Origin: Planctomycetales bacterium
GTDB lineage: Bacteria; Planctomycetota; Planctomycetia; Isosphaerales; Isosphaeraceae
Length of the DNA: 64,000 bases
Assembly (NCBI GenBank): GCA_027452145.1
Contig: DAIDHB010000131.1
Span: 1 to 64,000, forward strand
Reading direction: 5' to 3'
The notes beneath the pieces are model-generated. The model worked only from the letters and a program-made list of their open reading frames with translations. It was not told the origin of the DNA and ran no database searches. Position numbers and translations under genes: made by a program. Positions 5,104-50,900 of this stretch are shown piece by piece (position 1 is the first letter of the stretch; each line of letters begins with the position of its first letter).

Positions 5104-5330
5104 CCCCCGTCAGGGGGCGATCGGACGTAGCCGGGGGGCGTCAGGCCCCCGGGCTCGGACCTCGGCGCCACACACCAGGTCCTCGCGACGGCCTCCCCCG
5201 GCCGCGACCCCGCCACGCGGGGTCGCGGCCGGGGGAGTGATACGATGGCGGGGAGAAGGGGGGCGCATGGCGGCCCGGGGGGCTCACGCCCCCCGGCTAC
5301 GTCCCGACGCCCACTTCGTGGGCTCCCAGG
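5104..5330. repeat. Nested GC-rich palindromic repeat, copy B
   Basis: A direct repeat of the element at the window start. Outer arms are at 5126-5144 and 5283-5301 (one mismatch). The central hairpin is at 5194-5212/5218-5236 and is a 19-bp perfect stem. The right-edge GCCCACTTCGTGGGC palindrome is also conserved. It follows a CTGTCCCGGAAG motif at about 5086. The two copies bracket the 261-4858 gene pair. The rest of the 4859-5364 gap holds no gene. Confidence 0.8.
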
Positions 5331-5925: not shown

Positions 5926-6353
5926 TGTCATGTCTCCTTGGTTGCTCGTTGCCTGCCTGGTGAACGTCGCTCTTCTCTTCTCGGGTCCGAACGCCACGCC
6001 GCGCCGCGCCACGCGCGGGCGAGCCGAGCCTCCCTGGGGGAACGCATCGTCCCCGCCGGGGCCAATCGTCGGCGTGCGTCGTCCGCTCGCTCGTGCCGGT
6101 TGCAACTTAGCCGGACGGGATGCCCGTCTCAAGGGGCTTGTCGGCGTCCCGGTCGCAGGGCACGCAAATCCCGCACCGCCGGCCGGATGAGTGGACAGGC
6201 ACACATCCAGGGTTCAGAATAGTGCGCTGGTACGAAGGGCGGTCAGGCTTTCCTGCCCGACGGGGCCTGAGCATCAGGCCAAAAGCCTGACCCAGGTAAG
6301 ATCCTTTCGCTCCGGTGAATATCGGGGTCCGATTTCTGCGGGGGCGGCGATCG
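5926..6353. other. Divergent intergenic region
   Basis: The gap between sodC (minus) and the wHTH gene (plus). No gene is supported. It contains a decayed GGTCAGGCTTT-type palindrome at 6241-6292 and presumably both promoters, but no convincing -35/-10 pair is visible. Confidence 0.5.
6241..6292. repeat. GGTCAGGC-type palindromic repeat (degenerate)
   Basis: The arm GGTCAGGCTTTCCTGCCCGA at 6241-6260 is partly complementary to TCAGGCCAAAAGCCTGACC at 6274-6292. It belongs to the same family as the perfect palindrome at 7407-7469. Confidence 0.6.
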
Positions 6354-7412
6354 ATGCAGGAGCAGGGGACTGTCGAGGTCGAGGCCGAGGTCCGGGTGCG
6401 CGAGCTGGTGCTGGCTCGGTTGTTGCCGGCCGGCGAGAAGGGGGAATCCTCGGCGAAGGTGCGCAAGGATCTCGAGCCGATGCTGGCCCACCGCTGGACG
6501 GGCCCGGTCCTGGCGGGACGGGTCGACGGCGCGCTCGACGCGTTGACCCGGGCCGGCCTGGTCGTGCGGATCGCCGGCAAGACCCGCAAGGCCGCGCCCC
6601 GGTTCGCCACGACAGCCGACGGCCGGCGCCGGGCACTCGAGGCGCTGGGGGTCGCCGAGCTGCGGCCGAAGACGACCTGGGCGGCGATCCGCAAGACCTA
6701 CCTGCCGGCCGCCGCGCTCGGGCTGCCGGCCTCGGGCGAGTCGGCGTTCAAGGCGATGGGCTCCGACCCGATCGTCCGCGCCGTGCTGCTGAGGCGCCAG
6801 TTCGGCCTGCCGACCGCCGAGGTGCCGAAGCTCGACGACGCCATCGACGCCCTCGCCTGGAAACTGATCGGCTTCGAGGGCGTTTCGCGCAAGTTCGACG
6901 CGAAGGCCGTGAAGGCGGCGCTCCTCAACCGGGAGCTGGGCGACGGCCGCGCCGCCGACTTCAAGAAGGCCGCCGCGCGCCTCGTCGCCCGCAATGCCGG
7001 CGCCCGCCGCGACGACGGCAAGGAGCTGCGCGATGCGATCCTCCGGGCCTGGGTCGGCGTCGCGAACGCGGAAGACGAGGCGGATACCAGCATCGAGGCG
7101 CCGCCGACCCTGCCGGCGCTGGCCCCCGGCGTGCTGGCCGAGCGGGTCAAGGCCGCGGCCCGCGACTGTCCGACCGGGCGCTACGGCGATCACAAGGTGT
7201 TCATCGCGCACGTCTGGGACCACCTGCGAGCCCAGCCCGATTTCTCCGCGATGACACTCGACGACTTCAAGCACGCGCTGGCCGAGGCCAACAACCTCCG
7301 TCTGGTCGACCTGGCGCGCGCCGACCTGGTCCAGGCGATGGACCCCGACGAGGTGAGCCGGTCGGAGGTCCGTTACCTGGGTGCGACGTTTCATTTCATA
7401 CGGATCAAGTAG
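6354..7412 (+). CDS. Winged-helix protein of unknown function, partner of the downstream ATPase
   Basis: About 352 residues. The N-terminal 90 residues (VRVRELVLARLLPAGE...GALDALTRAGLVVRIAG...RFATTADGRRRAL) look like a winged-helix DNA-binding domain. The C-terminal stretch (YGDHKVFIAHVWDHL...MTLDDFKHALAEANNLRLVDL...SEVRYLGATFHFIR) looks like a second winged-helix-like module ending in beta strands. The middle is helical and unrecognised. No catalytic motif is visible. It is followed after 90 bp by a P-loop ATPase gene on the same strand. The ATG at 6354 is chosen over an in-frame GTG at 6315, but the start is uncertain. The TAG stop (7410-7412) lies inside the arm of a perfect palindromic repeat. 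Confidence 0.7.
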   Translation: MQEQGTVEVEAEVRVRELVLARLLPAGEKGESSAKVRKDLEPMLAHRWTGPVLAGRVDGALDALTRAGLVVRIAGKTRKAAPRFATTADGRRRALEALGVAELRPKTTWAAIRKTYLPAAALGLPASGESAFKAMGSDPIVRAVLLRRQFGLPTAEVPKLDDAIDALAWKLIGFEGVSRKFDAKAVKAALLNRELGDGRAADFKKAAARLVARNAGARRDDGKELRDAILRAWVGVANAEDEADTSIEAPPTLPALAPGVLAERVKAAARDCPTGRYGDHKVFIAHVWDHLRAQPDFSAMTLDDFKHALAEANNLRLVDLARADLVQAMDPDEVSRSEVRYLGATFHFIRIK

Positions 7413-7469
7413 GTCAGGCTTTCCAGCCTGACGAGGCTGAAGCGTCAGGCTGGAAAGCCTGACCTACTT
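7407..7469. repeat. Perfect GTAGGTCAGGCTTTCC palindrome
   Basis: Arms of 26 bp at 7407-7432 and 7444-7469 are exactly complementary around an 11-nt loop. The stop codon of the upstream gene is part of the left arm. Related copies lie at 6241, 27813, 36993 and 56217. As RNA it would form a strong hairpin between the two genes of this pair, but there is no U-tract. Confidence 0.9.
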
Positions 7470-24100: not shown

Positions 24101-24191
24101 ACAACCGATACCGTCGCAATATCCCGAATCTTCGCGAATCACCATGCAGCCCACACATTCGACTCGACGCCGACCGCGGGAGCACGCCGCC

Positions 24192-26741
24192 ATGGGAATC
24201 GATCCGGAACGCAACGAGACATCGAACGGGCAGGGCAACGGCGATGCCGAGGCGCCGCGCGGGGCATCGCGGGCCGGCCGCGGACGCTCCGCCGCCAGGG
24301 CCAAGACGGCGACGATGGCCGCTGCGCCGGCGCCCCCAATGGCGCCGGCTGCCGGCCGGGGCTCGCGCGCAGCACGCAGCGCGACCCCCGCCGCGCTGGC
24401 GATCGCCGAGGAGGCCCAGGGCCTGCTGAACGAGGCCAACGCCAACACGCAGGCGCTCATCGACACGATCGCCGCCGTCATTCGCGCCGACACGATCGAC
24501 GAGCTGGTCCGCATCACGCTGGACACGATCCGCAAGGAGTTCGGCCTGGCGTATGCCTCGTACTGGACCGTGGACCCGACGGATCGCACGCTGACCTTCG
24601 CGATGGAATCGGGCCGCGTGGACGACGAGTTCCAGCGGCTGACCCGCACGGCGCGGTTCCGCGAGGGCGAGGGGCTCAATGGCCGGGCCTGGCGGCAGCG
24701 CGATCTGTTCCACGTCGAGGACATCGGCGAGCTGCGCGACTGCTGCCGCGCCCCGCTGGCGCACCGCGCGGGGATCCGCTCGGCGGTGGCATTGCCGCTG
24801 CTGCGCGACGGCGAGGTCGTCGGCACGCTCGACTTCTTCGCCGACCAGGCGGTCGAGATCTCGCCGGTCCGGGCCGAGGCCCTGCGCACCATCGGCCGGC
24901 TGTCGTCCGACAAGCTTTCCAAGCTGGCGCGCCAGGGCGAGCTGAACCGGATCAATCAGATGGTCGAAAACGCGCCGGTGAACATGATGTACGCCGACCC
25001 CGACCTGAATATCCGCTACATGAACCCCCGCGCCGAGCAGACCCTCCGCCGCCTCGAGGCGCACCTGCCGGTGAAGGTGGACCAGATGATCGGCAGCTCG
25101 ATCGACGTCTTTCACAAGGCGCCCGAATACCAGCGCCGGCTGCTGGCCGACCCGAAGAACCTGCCGCGCACGGCGACGATCACCGTCGGGCCCGAGCTGT
25201 TCGAGCTGACCGTCGCCGCGATGCTGGACCTGCACGGCAAATTCATCGGGCCGATGATCACCTGGGAGGTCATCACCGAGAAGGTCGAGACCGCCCGGCG
25301 CGAGGCGGAGACCGCCGCCGATGTCCGCGCCGTCAACCAGCTCCTGCTGGCGATCGGCCGGGCGCGGGCCGCGCGCGACGTGATCGCCGCGGCGCTTTCC
25401 AGCGTGCGCGAGGCCTTCGGCTGGTCGTATGGCTCGTACTGGGAAGTCAACCCCGAGGACCAGGCGCTGCGGTTCTCGCAGGACGCCGGGACCGTGAGCG
25501 ACGAGTTCCGCCGCGTGACGGCCGAGGCGCGGTTCCGCGAGGGCGAGGGGCTCAACGGCCAGGTCTGGCAATCGCGCGACCTGGTCTTTGTCCCCGACCT
25601 GGGCGAGATGAAGACCTGCTCGCGCTCGCCCGCCGCGCGCCGCGGCGGGCTGAAGTCCGGCGTGTGCTTCCCGATCCAGGTCGGCGGCCGCGTCATCGGC
25701 ACCATGGACTTCTTCACCGAGCAGAAGATCACGCCCTCGGAGAGCCGGCTGGATGCCCTGCGCAACGTCGGCCGGCTGGTCTCCTCGGCTCTGGAACGGG
25801 TCGAGCAGCAGACACTTCTCGATCGATCGAAGAAGGACCTGGAGACCAAGGTCAACCAGCTCATGGTCGTGGCGCGGGCCGCGGCGGAAGGAGACCTGTC
25901 CGTCGCCGTCGGGGTCCGCGGCGACGACGACATGGGCCGGCTAGGCGAGGCCCTGGGCGGGATGATCGCCGACCTCAAGAACATCATCAGCCAGGTCGTC
26001 GAGTCCGCCAGCCAGTTCGCCGAGGGCTCGCGCGTGGTCGCCGAGAGCGCCAATTATCTCAGCGAGTCGGCGCAGAACCAGGCGGCCACCGTCGAGGAGA
26101 TGTCGGCGTCGATCCAGCAACTGTCGCACTCGATCGTCGAGATCAACCAGAACGCCTCGGCGGCCAGCACCCAGGCCAGCCGGACGTCGCAACTGGCGAA
26201 GCAGGGGGGCGAGTCGGTCGAGCAGGCCATCGAGGCCATGGTCCTCATCAAGAAATCCAGCGAGCAGGTCAGCGACATCATCCAGGTCATCAGCGAGATC
26301 GCCAGCCAGACGAACCTGCTCGCCCTGAACGCCGCGATCGAGGCCGCCCGCGCCGGCGAGCACGGGCTGGGATTCGCCGTCGTCGCGGACGAGGTCCGCA
26401 AGCTGGCCGAGCGCTCCAGCGCCGCGGCCAAGGAGATCACCGCGCTCATCAAGGAATCGACCAGGCGCGTCGCCGACGGGGCGCAGCTCTCCGAGAAGGC
26501 CGGCGAATCCCTGTCGCGGATCGTTCAGGGCGTCGAGGAGACCGCGGCCAGCATCGCCAAGATCGCCCAGGCCACCCGCGAGCAGACCGAGGCCTCGACC
26601 GAGGTCAACAAGGCTATTCAGAACGTTTCCAGCATCACCGAGACCAATGCCTCCAGCTCCGAGGAACTCTCCGCCAGCGCCGAGGAGCTGGGCGCGCAGG
26701 CCGGGACGCTCAAGCAGGTGATCTCTGGTTTTAAGGTCTGA
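24192..26741 (+). CDS. Soluble methyl-accepting chemoreceptor with GAF-PAS-GAF sensor
   Basis: A 849-residue receptor without transmembrane helices, so cytosolic. After an Ala/Gly-rich leader, GAF1 spans about 85-240 ([26 protein letters not shown]) and a PAS-like domain about 250-375 ([26 protein letters not shown]). GAF2 spans about 380-535 and is clearly a duplicate of GAF1 ([26 protein letters not shown]). A HAMP-like segment is at about 555-615 and an MCP signalling domain follows to the end, with the hairpin tip [27 protein letters not shown] precedes the ATG at 24192. The paired GAF domains imply sensing of an intracellular small molecule. No CheR-tethering pentapeptide is seen at the C-terminus (ISGFKV). 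Confidence 0.92.
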
Positions 26742-26743
26742 TT

Positions 26744-26968
26744 CGTCATTAGTCATTAGTCATTACCTGCGCTGGTGGTTCTGCTTATCGTCAGCGCGGG
26801 TTTCGGACGTTGGGGAGCGCCGTGGTCTGACCGGGGCGGACGGCATGCGGACAGAAAAGGATGCCATAGGACAAAGAGCAAAGGACGGAGCAAGGACTCT
26901 GGACCAATGACCAATGACCCATGACCAATGACCAATGACCAATGACCAATGACCAATGACCAATGACC
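26744..26968. repeat. Heptanucleotide-armed repeat element 1 (mcp-cheR gap)
   Basis: The left arm at 26744-26767 has copies of GTCATTA. The right arm at 26902-26968 is about nine tandem copies of TGACCAA, the complementary sense. A core of about 135 bp includes GACAAAGAGCAAAGGAC, shared with element 2. The last unit supplies the cheR start codon. Confidence 0.85.
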
Positions 26969-27796
26969 ATCACCGAACTAACCGACGACGAGTTTTCGAA
27001 GTTCTGCGGGCTGATCTACCGCGCGGCGGGCATCCGGATCGCCGACAGCAAGCGGATCATGGTCGGCAATCGGCTTCGTCGACGGCTTCGGGCCACCGGG
27101 ATCGGCGGCTTCGCGGAGTATTACGGGTATCTGACATCCGCCGCCGGCGCCGGCGAGATGCCGCAGTTCCTCGACGCGATGACGACCAATGAAACCTATT
27201 TCTTCCGGGATCCGCAGCACTATCAGTGGCTCGGCGGAGAGTTCTTGCCCGAGCTGGCCCGGTCGGCCGCGATGCGCAGACCACCCCGACGGCTGCGGAT
27301 CTGGTCGGCGGCGTGCAGCACCGGCGAGGAGCCCTATTCGATGGCCATCGAGGTGGCCGAGAAGCGGCCGATCCTCGCCGGCTGGGACATCCGCATCCTC
27401 GGCACCGATATCAGCGGCGCCGCGCTGGCCGAGGCCCGAGCCGGCCGGTATGACGCCCGCGCCCTCCGCCTGGTCGAGCCGGCGCGTCGACTCGCGTTCT
27501 TCGACGAGGACGCCGCGGCCGGCCGCTGGGCCGTCAAGGCCGACCTCAAGGCGCTCGTTTCCTGGAAGCTCCACAACCTCCTCATGCCGCTGCGCGAGGA
27601 ACTGTTTGATTGCATCTTTATCAAGAACGTGCTGATTTATTTTGACAGGGATTCCAAGCAGGTCGTGGTGAAGAACCTGCTGGCGGCGCTGGCGCCCGGC
27701 GGATACCTGCTCGTCGGGCCGACCGAGGGCGTTTACAACATGCTCGAGCCGCTGGAGAAGCGGAAGACCTGGCTGTACAGGAAGCCGGGGGGATAA
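26963..27796 (+). CDS. cheR: Chemoreceptor methyltransferase CheR
   Basis: A 277-residue SAM-dependent glutamate methyltransferase. An N-terminal helical domain (1-75) leads to MTTNETYFFRDPQHY, then the SAM-binding motif RIWSAACSTGEEPYSMA, ILGTDISG and FIKNVLIYFD, ending with YLLVGPTEG. It modifies the neighbouring receptor. The start codon and its leader lie inside the last heptamer of the TGACCAA array, so no Shine-Dalgarno sequence is present. Initiation may depend on the repeat or on re-initiation. Confidence 0.93.
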   Translation: MTITELTDDEFSKFCGLIYRAAGIRIADSKRIMVGNRLRRRLRATGIGGFAEYYGYLTSAAGAGEMPQFLDAMTTNETYFFRDPQHYQWLGGEFLPELARSAAMRRPPRRLRIWSAACSTGEEPYSMAIEVAEKRPILAGWDIRILGTDISGAALAEARAGRYDARALRLVEPARRLAFFDEDAAAGRWAVKADLKALVSWKLHNLLMPLREELFDCIFIKNVLIYFDRDSKQVVVKNLLAALAPGGYLLVGPTEGVYNMLEPLEKRKTWLYRKPGG

Positions 27797-27812
27797 TTCG
27801 TACGCCGGCTTT

Positions 27813-27877
27813 CAAGTGGGTCGGGCTCTCCAGCCCGACGGGGATTGAGCGTCGGGCAAGAATGCCCGACCGACTTG
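27813..27877. repeat. GGTCGGGC-type palindrome between cheR and cheA
   Basis: Imperfect arms lie at 27813-27839 and 27851-27877 (CAAGTGGGTCGGGCTCTCC and its counterpart). It is the same family as 7407-7469. An ATG at 27862 inside the right arm opens the cheA frame, but the better start lies downstream. Confidence 0.8.
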
Positions 27878-27909
27878 AGGGCGGGGAGATCAACCGAGGT
27901 GCGATTGTT

Positions 27910-30114
27910 GTGTCGGGATTCAACCTGGCCGAGCTGATGCCGTTCTACCTGGATGAGACCGACGAGCACATCGCCGGGCTCAACGACGCCCTGCTGCGCC
28001 TCGAGCAGGACCCGGCTGATGCCCGGGCGCTCCAGGAGGCGTTCCGGATGTTCCACAGCATCAAGGGCGCCTCGGTCGTCATGGGCTTCGACCCGGTCAA
28101 TCGGCTGACGCACCACCTCGAGAGCCTGTTCGAGCAGTTGCGGAGCAAGAAGCGCCAGCTCGGCCGGCCGGACCTCGAGCTGACCTTCCGGTGCCTGGAT
28201 ACCCTGCGCGACTTTCACCGGGATCTTCGCGCGCACGGCCAGAGCCCGGCGGACCTCTCGGCGCTGACGGCCGAGGTCGAGGCGGCCGTCCGCGGCGCGC
28301 CGGCGGCCGCGGCCGCGGTCGAGGCGGTACCCCCGCCGACCATCCCAGCGCCGGTGTCCATGTCCGTGTCCGTCCCCGCGCCGGCCGCTCCACCACCCGC
28401 CGCGTCCTTCGACGAATCCGGCCGGGTGACCGTCACGGTGGTGTTCGAGCCGAACCTGCCGCTGGCCGACATGAAGGCCCGGCTGGTGCTGAACCGGCTC
28501 TCGTCGCGGGCGCGGGTGATCTCCACGGACCCGCCGGCCGAGAAGCTCGACGAGGTGGATCCGCTGTCGCGGTTCACCGTCGTACTTGCGGCCGACGTCC
28601 CGCCCGACGAGCTGCGCGCCCTGGCCGACGTCGAGGGCGTGACCGAGATCCGCGTGCAATCGGCCGGGCAGGCCGAGGCGCCGGAGTCCCGGGTCGAGGC
28701 GCAGCCCGAGCGGGTCGTCGCCGAACCCGCGACGGCCGAGGCCGCCGCACCGGGCGAGCCGCCGGCCCCGGCCGTCGTACCGGAGGCGCCCGCCGCTGCC
28801 CCGCACCACCAGCGCAAGCCTCGCGTCGCCGAGACGATCCGGGTCGACAGCGACCGCCTGGACCACCTGATGAACCTCGCGGGCGAGCTGGTCATCACCC
28901 GGGCCCGCTTCGTGGCGATCGCGCGGGGGCTCGAGGAGCTATTTCGCGGCTCCGGCGCGCAGGCCGAGCTGCCCCGGGTGCGCGAGGCGCGCGAGCAGGT
29001 CAAGGCGCTCGCCGAGGCGATCCACGGCCTGGGCAGGGTCTCCGACGGACTCCAGAAGGGCGTGCTCGACACGCGGATGGTGCCGATCGGCCCGCTGTTC
29101 GAGCGGTTCCGCCGGGTGATCCGGGACCTGAGCGTTTCCTCGGGCAAGGAGGTGAATCTCAAGATCGGCGGCGAGAAGACCGAGCTGGACAAGCGGATGA
29201 TCGACGAGCTGTCGGACCCGCTGATTCACATGGTCCGCAACGCCGTGGATCACGGCCTCGAGCCGCCGGCGGAGCGCGAGGCCGCCGGCAAGCCCAGGGG
29301 CGGCACCGTCTCCTTGCAGGCCTCGCACCGCGGCAACAGCGTGGTCATCACCGTCAGCGACGACGGCCGCGGCATCGACTGCGAGCGCATCCGCAGGAAG
29401 ATCGTCGATCGGGGGCTGGTCGACGAGCGCTCCGCCCGCGAGCTCTCCGATCGCGAGCTGGTCGCTTATATCTGGCACCCGGGACTCAGCACCGCGGAGA
29501 CGATCACCGAGATCTCCGGGCGCGGCGTCGGCATGGACATCGTCAAGGCGCGCATCGAGAATCTCAGCGGCGCCGTCGATGTCCGCAGCGTGCTCGGCCA
29601 GGGCACGACGTTCACGATCCGACTGCCGCTCACGCTGGCGATCATGTCGAGCCTGCTGGTGCGGATCTACGACGAGACCTACGCGATCCCGCTCGACCAC
29701 ATCGACGAGATCGTCGAGATCCGGCCCGAGCAGGTCTATCGCGTGCAGGGACGGCCCGCGATCGAGATCCGCAAGCGAATCGTGGCGCTGACGGCGCTCG
29801 GCGACGTCTTCCGCTGGGGCGGCCGGCCGCATCCAGCGTCGGCCAATGGCCACGCCGGGCCCACGCCCGAAGCCAACGGAGCCGGGCACCCCGACGACTC
29901 GCACTCGAAGCGCATCGTCGTCGTGGTGCAGAACGGCGAGACCACCATCGGCCTTCTCGTCGACGAGCTGATCGGCATGCAGGAGGTCGTCCTGAAATCC
30001 CTGGAAAAGAACTTCCGCTCGATTTCGGGACTGTCGGGCGCCAGCATCCTGGGCGACGGCCGCGTGTCGCTGATCCTCGACCTGGACGCTGTGATTGACA
30101 TGGTGGGGCGTTAG
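27910..30114 (+). CDS. cheA: Chemotaxis histidine kinase CheA
   Basis: A 734-residue kinase. The Hpt domain (1-110) has phosphoacceptor FHSIKG (H49). A Pro/Ala-rich linker follows, with a region of about 80 residues (VTVVFEPNLPLADMKARLVLNRL) resembling a P2/response-regulator-binding domain. The dimerisation helices start at IRVDSDRLDHLMNLAGELV. The ATPase domain has the N box LIHMVRNAVDHGLEP, VSDDGRGID and ISGRGVGMDIVK. The C-terminal CheW-like domain begins at IMSSLLVRIYDETYAIPLDHI. The GTG at 27910 has GAGG upstream and starts conserved sequence; an in-frame ATG at 27862 lies in a palindromic repeat. Confidence 0.93.
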   Translation: MSGFNLAELMPFYLDETDEHIAGLNDALLRLEQDPADARALQEAFRMFHSIKGASVVMGFDPVNRLTHHLESLFEQLRSKKRQLGRPDLELTFRCLDTLRDFHRDLRAHGQSPADLSALTAEVEAAVRGAPAAAAAVEAVPPPTIPAPVSMSVSVPAPAAPPPAASFDESGRVTVTVVFEPNLPLADMKARLVLNRLSSRARVISTDPPAEKLDEVDPLSRFTVVLAADVPPDELRALADVEGVTEIRVQSAGQAEAPESRVEAQPERVVAEPATAEAAAPGEPPAPAVVPEAPAAAPHHQRKPRVAETIRVDSDRLDHLMNLAGELVITRARFVAIARGLEELFRGSGAQAELPRVREAREQVKALAEAIHGLGRVSDGLQKGVLDTRMVPIGPLFERFRRVIRDLSVSSGKEVNLKIGGEKTELDKRMIDELSDPLIHMVRNAVDHGLEPPAEREAAGKPRGGTVSLQASHRGNSVVITVSDDGRGIDCERIRRKIVDRGLVDERSARELSDRELVAYIWHPGLSTAETITEISGRGVGMDIVKARIENLSGAVDVRSVLGQGTTFTIRLPLTLAIMSSLLVRIYDETYAIPLDHIDEIVEIRPEQVYRVQGRPAIEIRKRIVALTALGDVFRWGGRPHPASANGHAGPTPEANGAGHPDDSHSKRIVVVVQNGETTIGLLVDELIGMQEVVLKSLEKNFRSISGLSGASILGDGRVSLILDLDAVIDMVGR

Positions 30115-30313
30115 TTGTCATTGGTCATTGATCATTAGTCATTGGTTGAGCTGGTGCGATTTGCGCGGACCTCTTCTCGATCGCGGGGTTCGGAAGATGC
30201 GGACGCGCTGGGCTGGTTGCCTGGGGCCGGAGGACGGATCGCAGAGGACAAAGAGCAAAGAACAGAGCGATGAACGCAGGGAACCAATGACCAATGACCA
30301 ATGACCAATGACC
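30115..30313. repeat. Heptanucleotide-armed repeat element 2 (cheA-cheC gap)
   Basis: The left arm (30115-30146, TTGTCATTGGTCATTGATC...) starts right after the cheA stop. The right arm at 30282-30313 has four TGACCAA units. The core contains GGACAAAGAGCAAAGAAC and GATGCGGAC, shared with elements 1 and 3. The downstream gene's ribosome binding site GAGGAG abuts the end of the array. Confidence 0.85.
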
Positions 30314-30324
30314 GAGGAGCGAAG

Positions 30325-30978
30325 ATGGAACCGATCTCGAGCGAGGGTCAGCGCCGGCTGTTGCGGATGATCTTCGACCGGGGTGCCGAGGCCGCGTCGC
30401 TGGCGCTGTCGAAGTGGCTCGGGCGCGACGTCCGCCTCGCGATCAGCGACGTCGAGCTGGTGGACCTCGAGCAGGCGGGCGAGCTTCTCGGTCCGCCCGA
30501 GGAGCTGGTCGCTGCCTGCGCCATGGGGCTCGCCGGGCGGCTCACGGGCTCGCTGCTCCTGGTCTTCGAGGACCGATCGGGCCTGGCGCTGGTGGACCTC
30601 CTGATGCAACAGCCGATCGGCACGACGACCTCGTGGGGCCAGCTCGAGCAATCCGCGGCGCTCGAGACCACCAACATCGTCGGCTGTGCGTATGTGAATG
30701 CTCTGGCGGCGCACCTGCCCTCCGAGCCCGGCGAGCCCGAGCTGGTCCCGACGCCGCCGACGTTCCTCCACGAGTTCGCCGGCAGCCTGCTCGAGTTCGC
30801 CCTGATGGAGCAGGCGATGGAGCTCGACAAGCTGCTGTTGATCCGCAGCGAGTTCCGCGGCGGCCCGGACATGCCGCAGCTCAACTGGACGCTCCTGTTC
30901 GTCCCCAGCCGCGGCTCGCTCGAGGCGCTCGCCGCGTCGATCGCCCGGCTGGAATCGCCGTCTCTCGGCGCGGGCTGA
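30325..30978 (+). CDS. CheC-like chemotaxis phosphatase with one intact active site
   Basis: A 217-residue protein of the CheC/CheX/FliY phosphatase family. The second catalytic signature is intact: LEQSAALETTNIVGCAYVNAL (E114-x2-N117). The equivalent N-terminal position (MIFDRGAEAASLALSKWLG, about 15-33) lacks the E-x2-N pair, so one of the two pseudosymmetric sites is degenerate. It should dephosphorylate CheY-P, and CheC is known to pair with CheD, encoded next. GAGGAG is 7 nt before the ATG. An in-frame upstream ATG in the heptamer array (30301) is less likely. Confidence 0.8.
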   Translation: MEPISSEGQRRLLRMIFDRGAEAASLALSKWLGRDVRLAISDVELVDLEQAGELLGPPEELVAACAMGLAGRLTGSLLLVFEDRSGLALVDLLMQQPIGTTTSWGQLEQSAALETTNIVGCAYVNALAAHLPSEPGEPELVPTPPTFLHEFAGSLLEFALMEQAMELDKLLLIRSEFRGGPDMPQLNWTLLFVPSRGSLEALAASIARLESPSLGAG

Positions 30979-31034
30979 ACCGCGAGGTTCCATTGAAGAG
31001 CTGAACGGCGATGATTCATTGAAGAATTGAGAGT

Positions 31035-31125
31035 TTAACCGCGAAAAACGCGAAAAGGGAGGGACGTTCGAGCCGATGGCATGAGAGAGTCTTCCCGTTC
31101 CCTTTTTCGCGCTTTTCGCGGTTAA
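31035..31125. repeat. TTAACCGCGAAAAACG inverted repeat (cheC-cheD gap)
   Basis: Arms at 31035-31060 and 31099-31125 are nearly complementary (TTAACCGCGAAAAACGCG and its counterpart ending CGCGGTTAA). Related single-arm text occurs at 37832-37875. It would form a hairpin in the cheC-cheD transcript. Confidence 0.75.
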
Positions 31126-31175
31126 GTCCGAGTCCTTTAATCCGGGTCTTTGAGTCCGGGTCAAGAGAGGTGCCG

Positions 31176-31706
31176 ATGCCGACGACGCCCGCGGCGAGTG
31201 CCGGTGCGCAGGAACCTGCCGGGATCGTCTCGGTGGCGATCGGCCAGTGGGCCGTGGTCGCGGCCCCGGCGCGGGTTCGCACGCTCCTCGGCTCGTGCGT
31301 CGGCGTGGTGCTCTACGACCGGATGAACCGGGTTGGCGGAGTGGCGCACGTCGTGCTGCCCGCCTCGGTCGGCCCGGTGGACCACCCGGGCAAGTACGCC
31401 GATACCGCGGTCCCGGCCGTGGTCGACGAGCTCGAGCGACGGCTGGGCCCGCGCACCCGGACGCGCCTGGTCGCCAAGCTCGCTGGCGGGGCCAGCATGT
31501 TCCCGGTGGGCAGCGCGGCCGAGTCCGTCTCCATGCTGAACATCGGCCGGCGCAACCAGGACGCGATCGAGGCGATCCTGGAGACGATGCGGATTCCCGT
31601 GATCGGCCGCGATCTTGGCGGCACCACCGGCCGCCGCTTGACCCTCGACACCGTTTCGGGCATCGTCGCCATCAGGATACCGGGGAGAGCCGAGTATTCG
31701 ATTTAG
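31176..31706 (+). CDS. cheD: Chemoreceptor glutamine deamidase CheD
   Basis: A 176-residue CheD. It shows LLGSCVGVVLYD with the catalytic Cys (C41), GGVAHVVLP with the catalytic His (H58), YADTAVPAVVDEL, KLAGGASM and NIGRRNQDAI. It deamidates receptor glutamines and cooperates with CheC. GAGAGG precedes the ATG at 31176 by 6 nt; an in-frame GTG lies 6 nt earlier. Confidence 0.93.
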   Translation: MPTTPAASAGAQEPAGIVSVAIGQWAVVAAPARVRTLLGSCVGVVLYDRMNRVGGVAHVVLPASVGPVDHPGKYADTAVPAVVDELERRLGPRTRTRLVAKLAGGASMFPVGSAAESVSMLNIGRRNQDAIEAILETMRIPVIGRDLGGTTGRRLTLDTVSGIVAIRIPGRAEYSI

Positions 31707-31945
31707 TTATTGGTCATTAGTTATTTGTCATTCGTTATTGGTTGGGCGGGTGGCCCAGGCGCGGGCTCGGGACGCAGGGGATGCGGACAACCTGGACCGC
31801 CCGCTCGCAGACGAAGGTCGAATCACAGAGGACAAGGAACGAAGGATGAAGCGATCACGAGAGCGAACTGATGACCAATGACCAATGACCAATGACCAAT
31901 GACCAATGACCAATGACCAATGACCAATGACCAATGACCAATGAC
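31704..31945. repeat. Heptanucleotide-armed repeat element 3 (cheD-cheY gap)
   Basis: The left arm (31704-31744, TTAGTTATTGGTCATTAG...) overlaps the cheD stop codon. The right arm at 31870-31945 has about ten TGACCAA units and ends 15 bp before cheY. The core has GGGATGCGGACAACC and CAGAGGACAAGGAACG, related to the cores of elements 1 and 2. Confidence 0.85.
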
Positions 31946-31960
31946 AAGGGACCACCAGAC

Positions 31961-32320
31961 ATGAAGCGCCTACTCATCGTCGACGACGCGCTGTTCATGC
32001 GGAAGATGATCGGCGGGGTCGCGGCGGAGGCCGGCTGGGAGGTCGTGGGCGAGGCCGGCAACGGGCTCGAGGCGATCTTGCTCTACGAGGAGCTCCGGCC
32101 CGACCTGGTGACGATGGACCTGGTCATGCCCGAGATGGGCGGCCTCGAGGCGCTGCGGCGGATCCGTGCCGCCCACCCGAGTGCCCGTGTGGTCGTGGTC
32201 ACGGCGCTCGACCAGAAGCAGGTTTTGATGGACTCGATCCGCGAGGGCGCGATCGACTTCATCGTCAAGCCCTTCGAGCGGCAGCGGGTGTTGAACTTGC
32301 TGGCGAAGCTGGCAGGATAG
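31961..32320 (+). CDS. cheY: Single-domain response regulator CheY
   Basis: A 119-residue receiver domain. The acidic pocket is D8/D9, the phosphoacceptor D53 (LVTMDLVMPEMGG), the switch T81 (VVVVTALD) and the conserved lysine K103 (FIVKPF). It is the diffusible output of CheA. No output domain and no flagellar gene is nearby, so the target is unknown. AAGGGACC upstream can serve as ribosome binding site. Confidence 0.92.
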   Translation: MKRLLIVDDALFMRKMIGGVAAEAGWEVVGEAGNGLEAILLYEELRPDLVTMDLVMPEMGGLEALRRIRAAHPSARVVVVTALDQKQVLMDSIREGAIDFIVKPFERQRVLNLLAKLAG

Positions 32321-32381
32321 AGGGACGGGCAATCGGCCCGCGACCCCGGCGCCCGATCTCCCCAGCCCAGCGAGGCCCGAC

Positions 32382-33587
32382 GTGGCGAACCCCGGCAGCG
32401 AACGAGACAACCCGGCGGCGGAACGGCGGGGCGGCGAGGGCCGTCGCGTGCGGGTCCTGATCGTGGATGACTCGGCGCTGATGCGCCGGCTGCTGTCGGA
32501 CCTGCTCTCTTCGGCCGCCGAGATCGAGGTCGTGGGCTTTGCGCGCGACGGCCGCGAGGCGATCGCGGAGGCCGCCCGGCTGAAGCCCGACGTCGTCACC
32601 CTGGACGTCGAGATGCCCGAGGTCTCCGGGCTCGAGGCGCTGCCGACCTTGCTGGCCGTGCACGAGGTCCCCGTGGTGATGGTCAGTTCGCTCACTCAGG
32701 AGGGCGCCGAGGTCACGCTCCAGGCCCTGGAGCTGGGCGCGGTCGATTACCTGCCCAAGCCCCAGAAGAACCCGCTCGGCGAGATGCGTGCGGCGCGCGA
32801 CGTCCTGGTCGCCAAGGTGCTGGCCGCCGCGCAGAGCCGCGTCCGCCGGCCCCGGCGCGCCGCTCGCCCGCGGCCGGTTGATGCGGGCGCACCCGCGGCC
32901 CCGGCGGCAGGCGCGCCCTCGGCATCAGTGTCGCCCGACCGGCCGCGACGGGGGCCCGCCGCGCCGGCATCGGAGATCGCGCCGATCGGTGGCGGCGGCG
33001 GCGTCGTCGTCATCGGCATCTCCACCGGCGGGCCGCAGGCGCTCAGCCAGGTCCTGCCGATGCTGGCCGCCCCGATCCCGCCGGTGCTGATCGTGCAGCA
33101 CATGCTCGCCGAGTTCACCGGGGTGTTCGCCCAGCGGCTCGACCGCTACACGGACTCGTCCATCCGGGTGAAGCAGGCCGAGGAAGGGGACGCGATCATC
33201 GCCGACCGGATCCTGATCGCCCCCGGCGGCCGGCACCTGGCGATCTCGGCGAAGGCCCCGCGCGCCCGGGTGACGATCAGCGACGAGCCCGAGGTCAGCG
33301 GCCACCGGCCGTCGATTGACGTGCTGTTCCGCTCGGCCGCCGCGGCGTTTGGTCCGGGCGTCACCGCGATCCTGATGACGGGCATGGGCCGCGACGGCGT
33401 CGACGGCTGCAAGGCGGTCCGCCAGGCCGGCGGGCTGACCCTCGGCCAGGACGAGGCGACCTCGGTCGTCTACGGCATGAACAAGGCCGCGCTGATCGAG
33501 GGCGCGCTGGCCGGGCAGTTCCCGCTCGACGAGCTGCCGGCCATCCTCCAGGATCTGGCCGGCTATCGCGCCCGGCTGGGAGGTTGA
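32382..33587 (+). CDS. cheB: Chemoreceptor methylesterase CheB
   Basis: A 401-residue protein. An N-terminal receiver domain (22-145; D29/D30, phosphoacceptor D75) joins through an Ala/Pro/Arg-rich linker (150-200) to the methylesterase domain. The catalytic triad is GISTGG (S214), IVQHM (H240) and MTGMGRDGVDG (D337). It removes receptor methyl groups under CheA control, opposing CheR. The GTG start at 32382 has GAGG about 7 nt upstream. It is the last gene of the cluster. Confidence 0.93.
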   Translation: MANPGSERDNPAAERRGGEGRRVRVLIVDDSALMRRLLSDLLSSAAEIEVVGFARDGREAIAEAARLKPDVVTLDVEMPEVSGLEALPTLLAVHEVPVVMVSSLTQEGAEVTLQALELGAVDYLPKPQKNPLGEMRAARDVLVAKVLAAAQSRVRRPRRAARPRPVDAGAPAAPAAGAPSASVSPDRPRRGPAAPASEIAPIGGGGGVVVIGISTGGPQALSQVLPMLAAPIPPVLIVQHMLAEFTGVFAQRLDRYTDSSIRVKQAEEGDAIIADRILIAPGGRHLAISAKAPRARVTISDEPEVSGHRPSIDVLFRSAAAAFGPGVTAILMTGMGRDGVDGCKAVRQAGGLTLGQDEATSVVYGMNKAALIEGALAGQFPLDELPAILQDLAGYRARLGG

Positions 33588-36963: not shown

Positions 36964-36992
36964 GAGCCTGTCCCGAAAGCCGCGGACGCCTT

Positions 36993-37068
36993 CGTAGGTC
37001 AGGCTTTCCAGCCCGACGCCGTCGGACGGACGGGACGGGCGGTGTCAGGCTGGAAAGCCTGACCTACG
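36993..37068. repeat. CGTAGGTCAGGCTTTCC palindrome
   Basis: Arms of 25 bp at 36993-37017 and 37044-37068 differ at one position. They enclose a 26-nt GC-rich loop. The family is that of 7407-7469. A CTGTCCCGAAAG motif lies immediately upstream at about 36968. Confidence 0.85.
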
Positions 37069-37236
37069 ACGGACGGATCGGCCGGGTCGGGCGGTCCGCC
37101 GATGCCGGGCCCGAACCAGGTGTTCCGCGAGGAGTGTCGGTTTCACCGCGAAGAGAATTCCGGATTTCCACGCGAAATACGTTCTGATGGGACTGCTGAC
37201 AGTCACAAGGCTGTCTCATCGGAGTTGAGTCACGCC

Positions 37237-47901: not shown

Positions 47902-50900
47902 TCACCGGGCGAACGGAGCGGCCGGGAAGGTCATGTCCTGCTCCAGGCCGTCGACCTCGCGTAGAAACGCGCGCGTCGCGTCATACATCGGCCCGGCCGG
48001 TCGCTTTTGAAGGATCGGCCGCAACGGCTCGAGCGTGGCGCGGGCCAGGTCGCTCCGGCCGAGGCGATGCTGGGCCAGCGCAAGGACGGCCCGGTTCGGC
48101 GGATAGGTGCCATCCAGCCGATAGGCGTTGAGCGGCTCAGCCCGGGCCAGGATATCCACCGCCTCATCATACTTCCCGAGGCGATAGAGCGCCGCGCCGC
48201 GGGCACCCTGGCCCAGGCCGTCGTGCGGGACAAGCCGGATGGCCGCCTCCGCCATCCGGAGCGCACGTTGATATGAGGCAGGGTCGGCCTTCGGGGACTG
48301 GACGAGGCTCCAGCTCGACCTGGCCAGACCGGCCGCATTCTCGGCGACGAGCTGGGCCAGCGCCAGGGCGTCGCGCCGGGCGGCCTCGCTCAGCGCGGGG
48401 TCGTCGCGCAGGCTGGCGAGCACCTCGTCCCGCAGCATCGGCTGGTCGTAGAGCGCATACACCCGGCGCTCGAGCTCGCGGGCGGCGCGGGTCGTGGCGT
48501 GCGACCCGGCCAGGCTCAGTGCCTCCTCCTTCACCTGGGCGTCGACGGTGGGATCCCGCCGGATGCGGGCCAGGACCTCGTCGTCGGACCTGGTCTGTTC
48601 GAGCAGGAAGGCGACCAGACTCCGAGCCTCGCGGAGAACCCGGCCCCGCGGGTCGAGCGGCGTCGCGTCCCAGAGGGCGACGGACGACTCGTCCCACCCC
48701 GACGCGAGGATGCGGCCGTCCGGGCTGAAGGCCAGGCCGGGGGAACCCAGACCGTGATGCTGGAGCGTGTGCAGCTCCTGCCCCGAGGACGCGTCCCAGA
48801 GCTTGATCATGCGGTCGGCGCCGGCGGAGGCCAGCGTCCTGCCATCGGGGCTGAAGACCAGGTGCTCGAGCGTGTTCGTGTGGCCGAGCAGCGCCTTGAG
48901 CTCCCGTCCGCCGGCAGGATCCCAGAGCCGCACGACCTGGTCGGAGCCGGCGGAGGCGAGGACCTTGCCATCCGGGCTGAAGGCGACCGCGTAAACGGAG
49001 CCGTCCTCCGGGCGCAGGACGCGGACCTCGCGGCCCGTGGCGAGGTCCCAGAGCCGGATCGCATGCTCGTCGTGGCCGGTGGCGAGGATCTTGCCGTCCG
49101 GGCTGAAGGCCAGGGAATAAGCCTGGTCGTCGCCGGCTCTCAGGCGCCTGGTCTCGCGGCCGGTCGCGGCGTCCCAGAGCCGGATCGTCCGGTCGGAGCT
49201 CGAGGAGGCGAGCACCGCTCCGTCGGGGCTCCAGGCCACGGCCGAGACCGGGTTCTCATGTCCGACGAACACCCGGAGCCCCTCGCCGGTCGCCGCATCC
49301 CAGAGCCGCACCGCATGGTCGTCGCCCGCAGCGGCGAGGACCTTGCCGTCGGGGCGGAAAGCCACCAGGTAGATCTTCCCCGCGGCGCCGTGGAACGCCC
49401 GCAGCGCGCGGCCGGTGGCCGGGTCGAAGGTCCTCACCACGCGGTCGTCGCCGACGACGGCGAGGGCCTTGCCGTCCGCGCGGAACGCCAGGCCGGCGAC
49501 GGAACCGGCGGACCCGCGCACGACCTGTGCGTCGGGCTCCGCCGCGGCATCCCAGACCTTCACGCGCGAGTCCTCCCCGGCGGTGGCCAGCGTGCGGCCG
49601 TCGGGGCTGTACGCCAGGTCCAGGACGGCGGCCTCGTGCCCGCGGAGGGTCCGCAGCTCCTCGCCGGTGGCGGCGTCCCAGACCTTCACCACGCGGTCGT
49701 CTCCCACCGACGCGAGGGCCTTCCCATCGGGGCTGTACTTCACGGCGTTGACGCATTCCGCGTGGCCGCGCAGGGTCCGGACCTCGCGGCCGCTCGACGC
49801 CTCCCACACCTTCACCGCGCGGTCCTCGCCCGCCGAGGCCAGGAACTGGCCGTCCGGGCTGAAAGCGACGCCGCGCACCCAGTCGGCGTGGCCGTGGAGG
49901 GTCCGGACCTCGCGGCCCGTCGCCGCCTCCCAGAGCCTCACCGTGCGGTCGTTGCCGGCGGAGGCGAGGGTGCGGCCGTCGGGGCTGAACGCCACGGCGA
50001 TGACGGTGTCCTCATGCCCGCGCAAGGTGCGGATCTCACGGCCGGTCGACGCGTCCCACAGTTTCACCGTGTCGTCGGCGGCGCAGGAGGCGAGCAGCTT
50101 GCCGTCGCGGCTACAGGCCAGGCCGTAGATCGTATCCCCGTGACCGCGAAGGGTCCGGATCTCGCGGCCCGTCGCCGCCTCCCAGACCTTGATCGTACGC
50201 CCCTCGCCGGCGGAGGCGACAGTCTTCCTGTCCGGGCTGAACGCCACGCAATAGACCCGGCTCGCATGGCCGCGGAAGGCCCGGATCTCGCGGCCGCTCG
50301 ACGCCTCCCAGAGCCTCACCGTACCGTCGTCGCCGCAGGAGGCAAGGATCGCGCCGTCGGGGCTGTACGCCACCTCCTGGACCATGTCCTCATGGCCTGC
50401 CAGGGTCCGCAGATCCGACTCGCAGAGGCGGCGGAAGTAGTACCACGCGAAGCCGCGCCGATCCGCGTCGCCGGGCTGCTTCGGCACCTGACCGTCGAGG
50501 TAGTGGCGGACGATCCCGATCCGGCCCTCCTGCCACGCCTGGCGCGCCAGCCCCATCTCGGCCAGGTAGAGGCGATGGTCGCCGATCGCCTTCTCGTCCC
50601 GAGCCTTCTGGGCCTCCAGGTTGGCGCGACCGGTCTCCTGGCGGGCGAGCCCCAGGTTGGCCAGGGCCTCGTCGGCACTGCGCATGGCGCGCGCCGCAAA
50701 GAAGGCCGACACCGCCGTGCCCAGCACCAGCAGCAGCGCCACGGCCGCCAGCAGCGACGCCACCAGCTTGTTGCGCCGGCACCAGCTCCAGGCTCGCTCG
50801 AGCCCGCCGATCGGCCGGGCGAGGATCGGCTCGCCCGCGACGAACCGCCGCAGGTCCTCGGCCAGCGCGGCGGCGCCCTCATACCGCCGGGCGGGGTCCT

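Follow-up and report, generated by a model that had tools for sequence, protein, structure and literature searches.

Facing heptamer arrays in a chemotaxis cluster belong to a dispersed class of intergenic inverted repeats with changing units and cores

Three gaps of a chemotaxis gene cluster each contain two facing arrays of a 7-nt unit, which raises the question of whether these elements are dedicated regulators of the cluster or local representatives of a wider intergenic class. The window—the whole 64-kb stretch of DNA analyzed here—belongs to a 10.9-Mb genome in 556 contigs (G000). Its chemotaxis genes, identified by Pfam, are ordered mcp–cheR–cheA–cheC–cheD–cheY–cheB. The forward strand carries mcp (24144–26741; GAF domains and MCPsignal, PF00015), cheR (26963–27796; PF01739 and PF03705), cheA (27862–30114; Hpt, P2, HATPase_c, and CheW domains), cheD (31170–31706; PF03975), and cheY, a single response-regulator receiver (31961–32320; PF00072). 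A further forward-strand gene, in the cheC position (30325–30978), has no Pfam match at E 1e-6 and is conserved in four related genomes (G003, G004, G001, and G008).

The elements E1 (26742–26970), E2 (30114–30315), and E3 (31703–31955) occupy the mcp–cheR, cheA–cheC, and cheD–cheY gaps, as originally predicted, and follow one plan: (ATTGGTC)n units at the stop codon form one arm, a core of ~128–135 nt with partly shared sequence comes next, and (TGACCAA)n units form the other arm, which extends to the next start. In the window, the doubled heptamer unit matches 30 times (≤2 mismatches), always within these three gaps, against 0.1 expected from shuffles, which argues against random simple repeats. 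Tandem Repeats Finder (TRF) reports right arrays of 9.7, 4.4, and 10.7 copies for E1, E2, and E3, at 96–100% identity.

Each element abuts its genes closely. The E1 left arm, (GTCATTA)n on the reverse strand at 26742–26765, lies directly 3′ of the mcp stop codon (TGA, 26739–26741); its core (26766–26900, forward) contains ATGCGGACAG and GGACAAAGAGCAAAGGAC, and its right arm of ~10 TGACCAA units (26901–26970, forward) supplies the cheR start codon, the ATG at 26963. The E2 left arm, of ATTGGTC type (30114–30148, reverse), overlaps the final base of the cheA stop codon (TAG). The right half of the E2 core (30149–30280, forward) is orthologous in the sister genome G003, where the left half is absent; the 4–5 TGACCAA units of the right arm (30281–30315, forward) precede GAGGAG and the likely cheC start at 30325. 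The E3 left arm, of TTATTGGTCATTAG type (31703–31742, reverse), starts at the cheD stop codon (TAG, 31704–31706), and the E3 core (31743–31870, forward) contains GATGCGGACAA and GAGGACAAGGAACGAAGG. The E3 right arm (31871–31955, forward) keeps perfect units up to 31945 and then degenerates ahead of the likely cheY start at 31961. For cheC and cheY, starts at 30325 and 31961, both 3′ of their arrays, are the more likely choice. The predicted seating of left arms at or next to upstream stops and of right arms near the next starts thus holds for all three elements.

Shared words in the cores had also been predicted, and this holds for two of the three pairs: alignment scores are 50 for E1–E2 and 33 for E2–E3, above the 99th percentile of shuffles (24), whereas the E1–E3 score of 24 is only marginal. 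No second significant match to the E2 core occurs in the window's genome, which suggests that E1–E3 probably derive from one another by local copying.

The arms are complementary, as predicted: over 31–40 nt, complementarity reaches 94% in E2 and 83–84% in E3, and although the E1 left arm is short and degenerate, the predicted E1 RNA still folds arm to arm. Predicted RNA folding of E1, E2, and E3 beats all shuffles (z of −3.5, −4.3, and −4.8), but such strength follows from the arms themselves and is not evidence of function. Neither an intrinsic terminator nor a known RNA family accounts for the elements: E1–E3 contain no terminator-like site (GC-rich stem, short loop, T run), and a search of 26000–32600 with Rfam 15 covariance models returned no match up to E=1. 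Neither strand of TGACCAA-like units has three consecutive G, as a G-quadruplex would need.

Confinement to the chemotaxis cluster, which the original prediction stated for the window, holds there but does not extend to the genome. Pattern and BLAST searches of G000 found 127 forward and 109 reverse matches to three units (≤2 mismatches), corresponding to dozens of elements. Sampled neighbors include groES–groEL (one element sits between the two genes), zwf–gnd (glucose-6-phosphate and 6-phosphogluconate dehydrogenase), a transporter, and a glycosyltransferase. Because similar elements flank such unrelated housekeeping genes, we reject chemotaxis-specific regulation, and with it the special link to chemotaxis that the prediction implied.

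Position relative to genes is far from random across the genome. By approximate gene calls, from a caller trained on G000 itself and with approximate start positions, no called gene contains any of the 25 two-armed elements, and in 19 of them each outer end falls within 25 nt of a gene end (0.6% expected for a random intergenic point). Where an arm end faces a stop codon, it touches or overlaps that stop in 22 of 32 cases. Twenty of the 25 elements lie between a stop and a start (on either strand), four between two stops, and one between two starts.

The constant part of these elements is the arms. Cores are mostly unrelated: many stand alone and the others form a few small groups, so the conserved core that had been taken as the defining part does not define the class; a genome-wide core search, proposed as a check, recovered no E2 core elsewhere and mostly unrelated cores in other elements. 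The largest core group has 21 members from G000, G003, and G008, joined mainly by a 20–26-nt inner motif (TTCGCTGACGCGGA), and seven G008 elements at different loci have cores of 80–100 nt that are ~86–93% identical.

Even the arm units vary across related genomes. Among 59 genomes including G000, TGACCAA arrays are common only in G000 and its congener G003; G001 and G008 have one match each. When ACCA is fixed and three bases per unit are left free, related units emerge: ACCACTG in G003, ACCAATT in G001, and ACCACGG in G008; this search found none in most other genera. The chemotaxis gaps follow the same pattern. The cheD–cheY gap has period-7 TTACCAA arms in G004 and G001 and GGACCAA-like arms in G008, and the mcp–cheR gap has CAGTGGT arms in G003 and CACGAAGGA-type arms in G001, G002, and G004. 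The cheA–cheC gap retains just the right half of E2 in G003, holds no element in G004 or G001, and has inserted ORFs in G008; two small ORFs there (L093, ~6030–6800) resemble, by eye, a MazE/MazF-type toxin–antitoxin pair. Differing arm sequences in corresponding gaps indicate that identical slots are used repeatedly. At the mcp–cheR slot, the E1 core has no similarity to the G003 interior in either orientation, which indicates that both arms and core were replaced.

Comparison with the sister genome G003 resolves these changes at individual slots. Seventeen usable orthologous slots were located by chimeric query of downstream flanks, and 16 were core-tested by masking arrays and aligning interiors in both orientations, with 480 non-orthologous comparisons as the null. 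Flanks were 81–97% identical for most slots (75% for one left flank) and usually unbroken to an identical outer boundary; at most slots the outer boundaries coincide in the two genomes and the contents have changed. Cores are homologous at 10 of the 16 slots (each p ≤ 0.0063): six in parallel orientation (L075 2542, L070, L075 1963, L009, L014, and L019) and four inverted (L015, L029, L031, and L032). Units are replaced in both arms while the core is kept at L032/L228 (TGACCAA in G000, GGACCAC in both G003 arms) and at L075 (1963)/L222 (TGACCAA arms in G000, GTCCGTG and CCACTGA arms in G003). TGACCAA arms at L026 likewise correspond to TGACCAC arms at L215, and at the L029 slot the G003 right arm consists of 27 TGACCAC units.

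Because the compared genomes are draft assemblies, flips and swaps might be assembly artefacts, or the arrays chance simple repeats. Long inverted arms can mislead assemblers in fragmented drafts, as with the 27-unit arm in L224, and the L029 flip, with its very long array, could be such an error. An artefact is unlikely at L031 and L032, where ordinary reads could cross the short arms and where point mutations separate the flipped cores. Chance must contend with the 30 matches against 0.1 in shuffles and with a pairing and placement far from random. Taken together, we find chance or artefact hardly credible as a general account.

The four inverted cores could instead mark invertible expression switches, in which a core flip would switch a promoter or terminator acting on the neighboring gene, as in inverton-like phase variation. 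As in invertons, cores do occur in both orientations, here between species (four inverted, six not). However, no sigma-70-like consensus promoter lies within E1–E3, which also lack the terminator-like sites sought above; the sampled neighbors include housekeeping pairs; and the cores are too variable for one shared signal. Switching of this kind is very improbable. Core flips combined with matched unit changes in both arms point to copying between arms rather than to a chemotaxis switch.

Mobility was also weighed. REP/BIME sequences are a familiar case of small intergenic inverted repeats that are scattered through genomes, often close to stop codons; these and MITEs have fixed arm sequences, and REPs are tied to Y1 (RAYT) transposases. 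The present elements resemble MITEs in being short and noncoding, with terminal inverted repeats and dispersed related copies. A MITE-like account would have a trans-acting transposase recognize the heptamer arms and insert elements at gene ends, after which cores decay, with inverted cores reflecting reinsertion in the opposite orientation. The closely similar G008 cores, the TTCGCTGACGCGGA motif common to G000, G003, and G008, and one empty and one nearly empty G003 slot (L073/L218, where two convergent genes have overlapping stops, and L021/L221) fit this account. Yet most slots are occupied in both sister genomes with identical outer boundaries, which would demand reinsertion at the exact same base, and units differ while cores remain homologous. 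The one clean empty site, L073/L218, bears no clear target-site duplication, and no arms flank an ORF within the ~2 kb inspected around them. REP/RAYT mobility was rejected: all eight Y1 transposase matches genome-wide lie on contigs without TGACCAA arrays, so that no Y1 link of the REP kind is seen in G000. Dispersal is evident for some cores, with no transposase linked to the arms in either search. We regard MITE-like mobility as an unlikely explanation of the class as a whole.

Selection on RNA poses a different challenge, since unit changes preserve complementarity. Hairpins between operon genes might be selected to stabilize, process, or insulate mRNA, with any sequence that keeps the stem being accepted. 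The strong predicted folds of E1–E3, the stop-to-start placement, and the transcription of most Xanthomonas heptamer repeats (PMC4692102) are in keeping with such a role. Elements also lie between divergent and between convergent genes, however, and some corresponding chemotaxis gaps in related species have no hairpin. Template switching, moreover, predicts arm matching equally well and can give apparent compensatory change without selection (PMC8794818). A selected RNA role for the class seems doubtful to us, though worth keeping in view.

The breadth of the architecture was surveyed by scanning 84,980 genomes for facing heptamer arms of ACCA(A/C)NN units separated by 70–100 nt, with period 7 forced. 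At least 116 loci in about a dozen phyla carry such arms; the scan was limited to one unit form and core range, with no matched control pattern, so this number describes breadth and not frequency. By record titles, the matches listed include Cyanobacteria, Planctomycetota, Bacteroidota, Acidobacteriota, Myxococcota, Gemmatimonadota, Chloroflexota, Pseudomonadota, Desulfobacterota, Bacillota, Armatimonadota, Chlorobiota, and Victivallales. The pattern left agreement between the two arms free, and left and right units were identical in 51 of the 116 matches listed (8 expected by permutation). Among the matches listed, only 1 of 113 analyzable loci lies inside a called gene, and the median distance from an outer end to a facing stop codon is 5 nt, with 76% within 25 nt against 9.6% expected. 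When the period was not forced, the other periodic-armed inverted repeats in the matches listed had period 7 in 15 of 18 cases and period 14 in two; a similarly unforced sample from G008 gave period 7 in 17 of 17 inverted repeats, with varied units. Other periods occur: 8 in G004, and 9 at 31035–31125 of the window. The latter site, in the cheC–cheD gap, forms a fourth hairpin within the cluster, its arms built of 9-nt GCGAAAAAC-type units; the same gap has CACGGAAAA-type arms in G003 and is short, without a hairpin, in G004, G001, and G008.

We consider it probable that E1–E3 belong to a class of intergenic inverted repeats that is renewed by slippage and by template switching (or recombination) between arms, and that is largely neutral rather than made up of dedicated regulators. 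The class layout would be two facing tandem 7-mer arrays, typically 70–130 nt apart, between a stop and the next start (or stop), in which the period of 7, the facing arms, and the place at gene ends persist and the 7-mer and core sequences change freely. Slippage would lengthen or shorten arrays in 7-nt steps. The replication machinery may occasionally copy one complementary arm from the other, or the arms may recombine; either event would re-match the arms, carry new 7-mers into both, and invert the core. Purifying selection would exclude elements from genes, but an arm could abut a gene where its units provide, or are compatible with, stop codons, ATGs, or purine-rich stretches for ribosome binding. 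Transcribed elements would form hairpins that transcription must pass, at least between groES and groEL. Related cores at different loci imply some spread of elements to new sites as well.

This scheme has precedents. Template switching between inverted-repeat arms is reported to homogenize arms and invert spacers, a combination taken as its signature (PMC8604942), and can create and maintain hairpins (PMC8794818), and 7-nt units have been linked to polymerase slippage in a proposal cited by PMC4692102. The spacer inversions reported in PMC8604942 are much shorter than the cores inverted here; arm homogenization and spacer inversion are common to both settings, but the published cases concern short arms with few-base spacers in yeast, and RNA genes, rather than tandem-heptamer arms or ~70–130-nt cores. 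By these traces, template switching and homologous recombination between arms would look alike. Arms of the same element in G000 agree better than arms across elements (longest perfect match 20.0 vs. 14.4 nt), whereas in G003 and G008 agreement within elements is not significantly above that between elements. Recent whole-arm copying predicts that variant units occur in mirrored order in the two arms; mirroring was not clear in 62 elements (p 0.09), which counts against recent copying of this kind, and mirroring was rejected as a template-switch footprint. TGACCAA is also shared at dozens of loci with unrelated cores, so local correction alone is not sufficient.

Parts of this architecture have been published. 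The GGGAATC heptamer repeats of Xanthomonas and Nostoc (Rehm et al. 2015, PMC4692102) are likewise tandem, dispersed, mostly intergenic, and near stop codons, and Xanthomonas has 70–75 cases per genome of two facing heptamer arrays close together; in sister species the arrays accompany the same genes but vary in length and sequence, and their function was left open. The elements described here share the multicopy tandem 7-nt units and the close facing pairs. That work focused on a G-rich unit and on G-quadruplexes, whereas here units are not G-rich, facing pairs are usual, and the elements show core flips and both-arm unit replacement. The TAACTGA direct repeats of Beggiatoaceae, cyanobacteria, and Bacteroidetes (MacGregor 2015, PMC4679880) similarly form arrays just 5′ of start codons, with 7-nt indels and a patchy distribution across phyla, but they run in a single direction (with one inverted case) and were proposed as binding sites for a translational regulator. 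Multicopy tandem heptanucleotides are also known from the cyanobacterium Calothrix; as cited in PMC4692102, they are not described with paired arms around an invertible core. In the open-access literature, which our search covered and to which novelty is provisionally confined, we found no description of core inversion, both-arm unit replacement, or such breadth for heptamer elements, and no match to the literal element sequences.

It is conceivable, and we advance it tentatively, that heptamer-armed inverted repeats constitute a widespread, unnamed bacterial intergenic class that is inherited by architecture—period 7, facing arms, and a seat at the stop codon—and not by sequence, renewing itself through arm exchange while cores flip to near-random orientation between sister species. 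If so, template switching in bacteria would have left a natural record in these repeats, and the excess of 7-nt tandem repeats, which has been known since 2007 but has no settled explanation (PMC4692102), would become easier to explain. Orthologous slots make that excess a testable question about replication: whether one arm is copied from the other, how fast cores flip, and why the period is 7. Apparent compensatory changes in intergenic hairpins need not imply selected RNA structure, and short inverted arms between operon genes would be sites of recurrent inversion.

The window contains repeats of other kinds. GTCGGGC/GTCAGG palindromes (AGGTCAGGCTTTCCAGCCTGACG type) lie at 7407–7469, 27815–27885, and 36989–37072, one of them filling the cheR–cheA gap, and a G003 slot orthologous to a heptamer element (L219) contains a related GTCGGGCATTCCTGCCCGAC copy. 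The window also has two copies (7–211 and 5112–5315) of an imperfect long hairpin whose arms, of ~41–43 nt, start AGGGGGCGATCGGACGTAGCCGGGGGGCG. At 48920–50409, 126-bp tandem repeats, by eye probably WD40-like, lie in a long reverse-strand ORF.
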